The notes beneath the pieces were generated by a model. That model searched no databases and was not told where the DNA came from. It saw nothing but the letters and a program-made list of their open reading frames with translations. The translations under genes and the position numbers were made by a program. DNA of 64,000 bases, taken from positions 124,001 through 188,000 of the forward strand of contig CALUVT010000002.1 of NCBI GenBank assembly GCA_944324345.1. Reading direction: 5' to 3'. Each line of letters begins with the position of its first letter. The stretch's first letter is position 1. The DNA comes from Candidatus Gastranaerophilales bacterium. Its GTDB lineage: Bacteria > Cyanobacteriota > Vampirovibrionia > Gastranaerophilales > Gastranaerophilaceae. This document shows positions 37,393 to 53,383 of the stretch, one piece after another.

Positions 37393-37420
37393 TTGTTTTT
37401 CTTAAAGAATATGTTATAAT
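37393..37420 (+). promoter_or_regulatory. Promoter of the prepilin gene
   Basis: TTGTTT (37393-37398), 16-base spacer, TATAAT (37415-37420) with TGT extension. Its -35 lies 6 bases from the -35 of the divergent permease promoter, so the two may compete. Confidence 0.7.
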
Positions 37421-37453
37421 AATTGTAGACAATTAAGCTTTGGAGAGGCAATT

Positions 37454-38295
37454 ATGGAAATTGTGAACAATACTAAAAACATCGGGGGGGGGGCACTCAC
37501 AGCTTAGCCACTCAATTTGAGTCTTGCGTAAAAAGAGGTTTTACTTTATCAGAGATGTTAATAACCCTTGGGATAATAGGCATAGTATCTCTGACAACAA
37601 TCCCCGTAATAAATGTTATTCAAGAAAAACACTTCCATGCGAAGTGGAAAGAGTGTTATTCAATATTGAATAATGCATTTTTGATGGTAGCATCTGAAAA
37701 TCCAAACATGGTAGTTTCAGAAGAAAAAAGTTATGACATGACAAGAGAATTTATAGATACAATGTTATCAAAACTAAAAGTTGTAGATACATGTGGTATT
37801 TCAAAAGATTGGGATGATGAGATTTGTGATAATTATTATTATATAAATTCTCGTAAAAAATTTCCTTGGGCAGGTATTGGAAATATATATTCAGTTTATT
37901 ATTCTTTAGCTGGTGATAGGATTACTGGTTATGATTTCGACCTAAAAGCAGCTTTGCTGGCTAATGGTGCAGTAATTCATTTTGGCGGGGAGCATTCGGG
38001 TTATACAATATTGGTTGATGTAAACAGTGCTGCCAAAGGACCTAATGTTTTGGGCCGGGATGTATATGCAATGAGTTTGACTGTTCCGAAATATCCTGCG
38101 GCTTGGATTGCATATTCAAAATTAATAATAGTAGAAGATATTAAAGTATTGCCATTAGGTGCTGTTGGAACAATCGGACAAACAGATGGTAGTTATGGTT
38201 CTTCTGGATGTTCCAAAGATATCGGATCTGCTTCAGCAAGTAATGTATATTCTGCAGCAGGTGCCGGGTGTTCTTATAAGTATTTAAGTGAGTAA
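37454..38295 (+). CDS. Type IV prepilin-like protein, out of frame at a G10 tract
   Basis: GGAGAGG and an ATG at 37454 start a frame that meets a run of ten G (37484-37493) and stops at TAG 37505 after 17 codons. Downstream, in another frame with no usable start, lies a prepilin N-terminus KRGFTLSEMLITLGIIGIVS, the pre-pilin peptidase site and hydrophobic helix, followed by a globular domain with Cys pairs ending at 38295. One more G (or two fewer) joins both parts into a protein of about 280 residues with a 28-residue leader. The G tract in AT-rich DNA suggests phase variation; a sequencing error is possible. Confidence 0.75.
37484..37493 (+). repeat. G10 homopolymer, candidate phase-variation tract
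   Basis: Ten consecutive G residues ten codons into the frame from ATG 37454. No other G or C tract of this length was noticed in the window. Length 10 gives the OFF frame; 8 or 11 gives ON. Confidence 0.8.
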
Positions 38296-51637: not shown

Positions 51638-53383
51638 ATGATTGAAAAAATTGGATTAATAAATTCTGAAAATAAAAAATATACCCCTCAGAAACAAAAA
51701 GGGCACTCTAGCGATCATACTTCTAATATTTATTTCAGCGGATTAGGAGATATGTTAGTTGGTGCTGTCCAATTATGTGAAAAATACCCAATGGTGAATG
51801 TTTCAGCTTTGGATTTATCTACAGCTATTGTTCCTAGAACTATTGTTGAAACTAAAGAATCTAACGGACATGCAGGATTTGAGGCATTTAGACGTGAGTC
51901 CTCCGGGTTGATTGTAAACTGCTTGATACCTAGTTTTATTGTAATGGCTGTTGCAAAGTTATTGCAGCGTCCTATTATGGGAAATTTTAAGAAGTCAAGT
52001 CTTGTTAATACTTGGGCAAACAGTGATTCTATTGATAAAGTTCATCAATTCTATGGAAATGCTTCAGGCAGTACTCAGAGAGAACGCGTATTTAACACTT
52101 TCAGAGATCAACTTTCAAGTTTGTCTGGCATAGACGGTTACGATAGAAAAGAATTTGCTGAATTGTTCCAGCTTTCTAAAGATGCTGATGGACGCATTGT
52201 AGTTGGAAATACTAAGATAAATAATGCATTGAACTCTTTAACTGATGCGGTAATGGCTGACAAGTTAGATAAAAAGGCAGTTAAAAAGGCTTATAATGCT
52301 ATTGTCGCTGAAACCCATATCGCGGAGAATATCAAATTTAAAGGTGATAAAGCATTTTTCTCTAATAATTTGGAATCAATATGTGATGATACCGTAAAAC
52401 TTTTACGCGGTGTCATAAAAGAGAATATTACAGATGCGTCAAAACTCGCTGAATATTTTGCTAAAGCTAAAAAACTTGTTAATTGGAAGAGCGTTGGCGG
52501 CTTAGGTTTAATTATTCCTTTAGCTATTTCAATGCAGCCTATTAACAGATGGATCACTCATAAAACTTCAGGTCAAAAGGGTGCTCCTATCTATAAAGAT
52601 TTTGGAAAGCAAAAAGAACATAGAGAACTAACCCCAAAAGAAAAAGCTCAGCTTTTAGCTCAAAAATTCATATCTATATCTTCAATGATTGGTGTTGCAG
52701 GCCTTTCAATGTTTATGGACAAACCTTCATTAAAAATGTTCCAGTTTAAAGGTTTGTTCCCGACGATGGATCAGGCAAGAATTATTTCTACTGCCACTTT
52801 TGCAAGCCGTATGGGTGCAGCAGAAGATATAAATGAACTTAGAGAATCAACTATTAGAGATATAGCAACGTTTTCAAGCTTCTATTTTGTCGGAGATTAT
52901 GTTGCTAAAGGAATTGCAACCTTACTGGAAAAAATGCACCAAAATGAAGGAGTTCATTTAATTAATCACACTGGTGTTAAACGTCCCGGTAAAGATGCAA
53001 ATGTTTTGCAAAAATTCTGGTATTGGGCAAAACATACATCTTTGAAATCTTCTGATGAATTAGCAACTGTTAAGGATAAACGATTAAGAACTATTTGTCA
53101 GATAGGTAATATTGCCTTCTCATTGTTGGCTTTAGGTTTGTTTATTCCACTTTATACAAGAACAAAGACTAATAAAAAACATGCAGAAGAGCTTGCAAGA
53201 TTAAATGCTAAAAAAGGTAATTCAGATACAAATGCTTCTTTAGATAAAGAAAATGATACTTCTGCCTCTGCATCACAAATTCAATTATCTTATACAGGAA
53301 ACAAAAACAAAGTTGATTTTGAAAAATTTTCAGGTTTGTTTCCAAGAAGTAACGAAGCATTTAAATCTTTTATAAATTCTTAA
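51638..53383 (+). CDS. Membrane protein of unknown family, paralogue A
   Basis: 581 residues. After a polar N-terminus comes NIYFSGLGDML, then DLSTAIVPRTIVETKE and FEAFRRESSGLIVN, both shared with the next gene. Several hydrophobic helices are predicted (near residues 93-112, 283-300, 343-360, 410-430 and 485-505). Also shared are MQPINRWITHKTSG, FKGLFPTMDQARII and ELRESTIRDIATF. The C-terminal 60 residues are Ser/Asn/Lys-rich. There is no signal peptide. No known family is recognised. No clear ribosome site; the leader is about 25 bases. Confidence 0.75.
   Translation: MIEKIGLINSENKKYTPQKQKGHSSDHTSNIYFSGLGDMLVGAVQLCEKYPMVNVSALDLSTAIVPRTIVETKESNGHAGFEAFRRESSGLIVNCLIPSFIVMAVAKLLQRPIMGNFKKSSLVNTWANSDSIDKVHQFYGNASGSTQRERVFNTFRDQLSSLSGIDGYDRKEFAELFQLSKDADGRIVVGNTKINNALNSLTDAVMADKLDKKAVKKAYNAIVAETHIAENIKFKGDKAFFSNNLESICDDTVKLLRGVIKENITDASKLAEYFAKAKKLVNWKSVGGLGLIIPLAISMQPINRWITHKTSGQKGAPIYKDFGKQKEHRELTPKEKAQLLAQKFISISSMIGVAGLSMFMDKPSLKMFQFKGLFPTMDQARIISTATFASRMGAAEDINELRESTIRDIATFSSFYFVGDYVAKGIATLLEKMHQNEGVHLINHTGVKRPGKDANVLQKFWYWAKHTSLKSSDELATVKDKRLRTICQIGNIAFSLLALGLFIPLYTRTKTNKKHAEELARLNAKKGNSDTNASLDKENDTSASASQIQLSYTGNKNKVDFEKFSGLFPRSNEAFKSFINS

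Follow-up and report, generated by a model that had tools for sequence, protein, structure and literature searches.

How can a pilin be made from a gene whose start codon and coding body lie in different reading frames? This question is raised by a locus at positions 37454 to 38295 on the forward strand of the window, by which we mean the whole stretch of 64,000 nucleotides analysed here, from contig CALUVT010000002.1 of a Candidatus Gastranaerophilales bacterium. By direct reading, a sigma-70-like promoter (TTGTTT at 37393-37398, a spacer of 16 nt and TATAAT at 37415-37420) and the Shine-Dalgarno sequence GGAGAGG (37442-37448) precede an ATG at 37454, which opens a leader frame of 17 codons that runs through ten G residues (37484-37493) and ends at a TAG (37505-37507) in the G10 state. 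The tract lies within a conserved DNA motif (37481-37505), which here takes the form ATC-G10-CACTCACAGCTT and has the family consensus TTC-G10-C[A/G]NT...AGCTT. The prepilin body, KRGFTLSEMLITL, extends from about 37531 to the TAA at 38293-38295; it is intact, carries the N-methyl motif (Pfam N_methyl, PF07963, scoring 25 bits where the cut-off is 21.2), lies in another frame than the leader and offers no start codon upstream of the peptidase site. The locus had been noted in an earlier sequence-only reading, whose description of promoter, ribosome-binding site, start, tract and early stop proved exact on re-reading, as did its placing of the body in a startless second frame. Its further claim, that one G more or two fewer would fuse leader and body, was confirmed by computed fusions: tracts of 11 or 8 give proteins of 280 and 279 aa, and changes of -1, 0 and +2 give only 21, 17 and 22 aa.

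The sequence-only reading had treated the tract as a single switch and had suggested looking for similar tracts at other pilin genes. The window tract is real, but what had been missed is that it belongs to a family of about 47 genes. The genome (1.76 Mb in five contigs) contains 48 distinct G10 or G11 tracts in one DNA context, the window tract among them, 44 of length ten and four of length eleven. N-methyl prepilins follow 47 of the 48 (46 and one, L010, that was recognised separately), and the remaining tract is found inside an acyltransferase gene (L041). The same genome has about 20 prepilin genes that lack a tract, 68 matches to N_methyl (PF07963) at E<=0.001 and a single match to prepilin peptidase (PF01478, 34 bits against a cut-off of 26.5); the family products are predicted type IV/II prepilins. 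That a G10 run in AT-rich DNA would hardly persist by chance, as had been argued, is borne out by run counts, which put the window tract far beyond chance: 464 kb of the genome contain 338 G4, 36 G5 and four G6 runs, no G7 or G8, and then a single G9 and five G10. When the whole genome was scanned for runs of six or more G flanked by C, only the G10/G11 class and one unrelated G6 came up. Because runs dwindle by G6, vanish at G7 and G8 and return at G9 to G10, the tracts form a separate class. They are longer than base composition predicts and lie inside or before their genes, one of the features by which SSR phase variation is recognised.

Three loci of this genome deserve separate mention. 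L010 (G000:C1:211896), a tract gene in frame at G10, combines N_methyl with YadA-head repeats and a weak match to the Peptidase_S74 chaperone. L167 (G000:C1:380678) is a tract-less prepilin gene with CCCCCTCCC at the usual place of the tract, which looks like a decayed tract. In L041 (1254-2375; G000:C3, tract 52088-52097) the C10 form of the motif stands in the middle of a gene for a membrane acyltransferase (Acyl_transf_3) that is in frame at C10; possibly this is a surface-modification gene, in which a switch would go OFF instead of ON.

Does tract length set the reading frame throughout the family? Among 122 genes with both start and body located, 117 require a length of 2 mod 3 (i.e., 11) and 107 are OFF by one at G10; six combinations of start and tract phase are represented, each of the three start-to-tract phases occurring in either orientation. 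The same length class yields the longest open reading frame in 128 of 136 tract genes when the pilin motif is ignored, so that G10 leaves them OFF by one, and the leaders run up to 81 codons. In this genome only five of the 47 prepilins are ON, three of them at G11 (L030, L035 and L038) and two in frame at ten (L037 and L010). The bodies are nevertheless intact, mostly 200-280 aa long, and their dN/dS is mostly about 0.1-0.3, pairs of two G10 genes included, which indicates purifying selection, although the values are rough, as many pairs approach saturation at synonymous sites. Given intact bodies under purifying selection, the out-of-frame genes appear to be used.

Tract length itself is almost fixed, yet not frozen. 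Among the 150 matches listed in each of two hand-counted sets, G10 occurs 134 and 128 times, uninterrupted G11 nine and 15 times and uninterrupted G9 two and three times, with rare G8, G12, G13 and interrupted tracts; overall, about 87% of the matches listed are G10, 8% are G11 and a few are G9. Length does vary between copies with near-identical flanks within one genome, which carry G10, G11 and G12 (L087, L081 and L093), and between the orthologues L124 and L077 (G10 versus G11). Moreover, the compared genomes represent one per species and many are metagenome-assembled, so the consensus hides minority lengths. With the fused frame retained, selection on the bodies and these length variants, the reading of the tract as a putative ON/OFF switch by frame, as proposed from the sequence, is well supported. 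What that proposal overlooked is how nearly constant the length is, at the OFF value: the classic picture, in which tract length varies freely, does not fit unless there is a strong pull toward G10. If length is pulled to ten, OFF is the default.

A further regularity concerns the strand. The run reads as G on the sense strand in 41 of the 48 tracts and as C in seven, but it lies as G on the GC-skew leading strand in all 48, whatever the direction of the gene. This association was tested in 20-kb stretches with coding asymmetry removed (t = 8.1); local GC skew over 3-8 kb was dropped as a measure, since it is confounded by the pilin gene's own strand. Hence, the 41 sense-G genes are codirectional with replication and the seven sense-C genes are head-on. 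Contigs of other species that bear both kinds have one common G strand in seven of seven cases, and the bodies of L044 and L121 are homologous (75% identical), with tracts of opposite sense. Both orientations share their flanks, with TC before the tract in 45 of 48 and C after it in 47 of 48, and AGCTT follows at a distance of 4-16 nt in 32 of 48, against about 0.5 expected. The same motif occurs in two non-pilin genes (L041 and L067). Flanks common to both orientations, together with a motif in the middle of non-pilin genes, imply a pattern at the level of DNA and not the product of one peptide. The single-gene view taken earlier missed both the C10 tracts in the sense of opposite-strand genes and the fact that the G strand follows replication. 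The combination of near-uniform length, flanking motif and strand rule is unusual. In L067 (2835-6269), from another species, the motif lies mid-gene in the coding sequence of a 1145-aa protein, in frame at C10, for which no Pfam match was found.

How widely is this arrangement distributed, and does it move? The motif is present in at least 25 of the 33 genomes of the genus and in 29 of 286 genomes of the order Gastranaerophilales, mostly of the same genus, with few in the other sampled genera; named records with the motif are mostly Candidatus Gastranaerophilales or Melainabacteria MAGs. Seven genomes of the genus gave no match to the tract motif (G002, G003, G004, G022, G024, G025 and G026, with 9 to 128 prepilin matches each), and viral contigs gave one match, in a context that is not pilin-like. 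The sequence-only reading had asked whether relatives carry a tract at the same place, and they do: the window slot is syntenic in three other species (L138, L123 and L055), where it is occupied by G10 prepilins with different bodies, in one case by two genes. Flank homology with another species extends up to about 37420, breaks off shortly before the leader and picks up again beyond the pilin stop. The window body has a paralogue in L024 (68.7% identical). The leaders of L011 and L013 differ by two mismatches in 80 nt and their bodies are 56% identical, and L044, L045 and L019 have nearly identical leaders on different bodies. Judged from such comparisons, leader and tract together resemble a module that can be exchanged. 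At L024 (1404 and 2379), two adjacent prepilin genes have identical leaders and tracts and different bodies. L051 and L095 are 98.6% identical over 1849 bp, including a tract prepilin, in genomes that are otherwise about 80% identical; this match reflects recent transfer or contamination.

Many sister genes contain a further element that had escaped the earlier reading and that the window gene lacks. CYNSDM-like peptides are encoded 3' of the tract in 41 of 129 tract genes, by DNA of roughly the form TTGnnn-N17-TATAAT-N6-ATG in frame with the body, and the strict in-frame form occurs in 27 genes against 0.6 in shuffles. This is a putative leaderless-promoter pattern, found in about a third of the tract genes; these may have basal expression whatever the state of the tract, and in them expression may thus not depend on frame.

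How might such genes be expressed? We favor, with reasonable though far from complete confidence, phase variation by DNA slippage around a default-OFF length, leading to a sparse stochastic choice among about 47 prepilin genes. Each gene would be gated by a G10 tract (or C10 in sense) near its start codon; slippage during DNA replication would take the tract from 10 to 11, with length 11 fusing leader to pilin (ON) and length 10 keeping them apart (OFF), and the pull of length to ten would make OFF the default. Few pilins would be ON in a cell at once, and the sets would differ between cells; probably, few of the many pilins are made per cell at a time. In about a third of the tract genes, the window gene excepted, the leaderless-promoter motif may add expression that is independent of the tract. 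We infer that slippage takes place at the DNA level and is reversible within a population, that ten acts as an attractor for mutation and that slippage is tuned by the rules of strand and flank. Provided that ten is such an attractor, replication slippage accounts at once for the frame rule, for the length variants and for the strand rule. Against it stand a spread of lengths far narrower than expected of a tract that slips freely, the intact MutS, and the leaderless-promoter motif of 41 of 129 tract genes, which may free their expression from the frame. A more specific version, which we offer tentatively and consider rather doubtful as a whole, is a dedicated slippage system that depends on the replication strand, in which a motif of about 25-30 bp around a leading-strand G10 holds the length at ten and permits occasional 10-to-11 changes, so that a few random pilins are made per cell, and that this motif is portable between genes and orientations. 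Loss of MutS was considered as a cause of unstable tracts and rejected, MutS being present and intact; an apparent MutS extension of 40 aa in tract-bearing genomes is open sequence before the conserved start.

Tight lengths invite an explanation in which the DNA does not change. The tract might stay at G10 and be read by programmed recoding, through +1 slippage of RNA polymerase or a -1 ribosomal shift, giving low and constant expression of every pilin. Such a process would account for a length near-fixed at ten across species, a required frame that is constantly one off and selection on bodies in the G10 state, but it leaves unexplained that the G run keeps to the replication strand whatever the direction of the gene, and that G11 and G12 copies with near-identical flanks exist. 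Ribosomal slippage would also need to give the same -1 result on runs of Gly and of Pro codons. A review of recoding has little to say about G runs as recoding sites in bacteria (PMC5009743), and we regard this reading as unlikely. Alternatively, the tract may mainly be a DNA element, a mark for recombination or replication that aids the exchange of leaders and cassettes, with expression from the leaderless promoter and frame mattering little. This would suit a motif that occurs in either orientation and also within two non-pilin genes, near-identical leaders on different bodies, cassette replacement at the syntenic window slot and the promoter-like motif of many sister genes; yet the fused frame is kept open in nearly all tract genes, across even the longest leaders, and the second promoter is absent from most genes, including the window gene, which makes the idea distinctly unlikely in our view.

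Two simpler readings fare worse. Sequencing or assembly might under-call G11 as G10 in genes that are truly in frame, and most genes would indeed be in frame at 11, but the same G10 recurs in many independent assemblies (contig names point to different assemblers), the same genomes do yield calls of G11, G12 and G13, and both non-pilin genes read in frame at ten; we consider such an artefact very improbable. That the genes are decaying, functionless pseudogenes would agree with most being out of frame, but is scarcely credible for intact bodies of that length and dN/dS.

How does slippage around a default-OFF length relate to known systems? Neisseria varies its pili by G-tract switching of pilC and, with a G4 element upstream, by gene conversion between pilE and pilS (PMC11868660 for the gene conversion). 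The genes described here resemble Neisseria pilin variation in that a pilus would vary and G-rich DNA lies beside a pilin gene, but here the tract is inside the leader and sets the frame. We saw no sign of 5'-truncated silent cassettes of the gonococcal pilE/pilS type, the tract loci being complete with Shine-Dalgarno sequence, start, leader and full body. As in the programmed transcriptional slippage of IS elements, for which a bacterial survey concerned A/T runs (PMC1088944), and as at recoding sites (PMC5009743), a homopolymer joins two frames; unlike at those sites, the runs are G or C, near-fixed in length and spread over about 47 genes. Our search of the literature, mostly outside subscription journals, found no report on this lineage that deals with phase variation, SSRs or pilin switching. 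A 2025 review counts among the open questions why genomes rich in phase-variable loci seem to be restricted to pathogens (PMC11868660). Here, a gut-associated non-photosynthetic cyanobacterial lineage has more candidate loci than Campylobacter jejuni NCTC11168, nearly all in one family of surface proteins, which suggests that common gut bacteria may have a built-in variety of pili at the level of single cells. The rules of length, frame and strand are testable constraints on how homopolymer length is maintained and on whether the direction of replication affects slippage. In C. jejuni NCTC11168, 29 poly-G/C loci have tracts of seven or more (PMC4965091; for mixed populations the same paper reports 20-35-fold overestimates, a matter of PCR stutter), and these contingency loci are the closest likeness: many genes gated by G or C tracts of similar lengths within the reading frame. 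In contrast to C. jejuni, however, the tracts described here belong to one gene family, about 87% have one length, the default state is one base away from ON, they come with conserved flanking DNA and obey a rule of replication strand, and the cyanobacterial host has MutS. Poly-G/C phase variation is of a known kind; its form here is new in the near-fixed length at the OFF value, in the motif and in the rule of strand.
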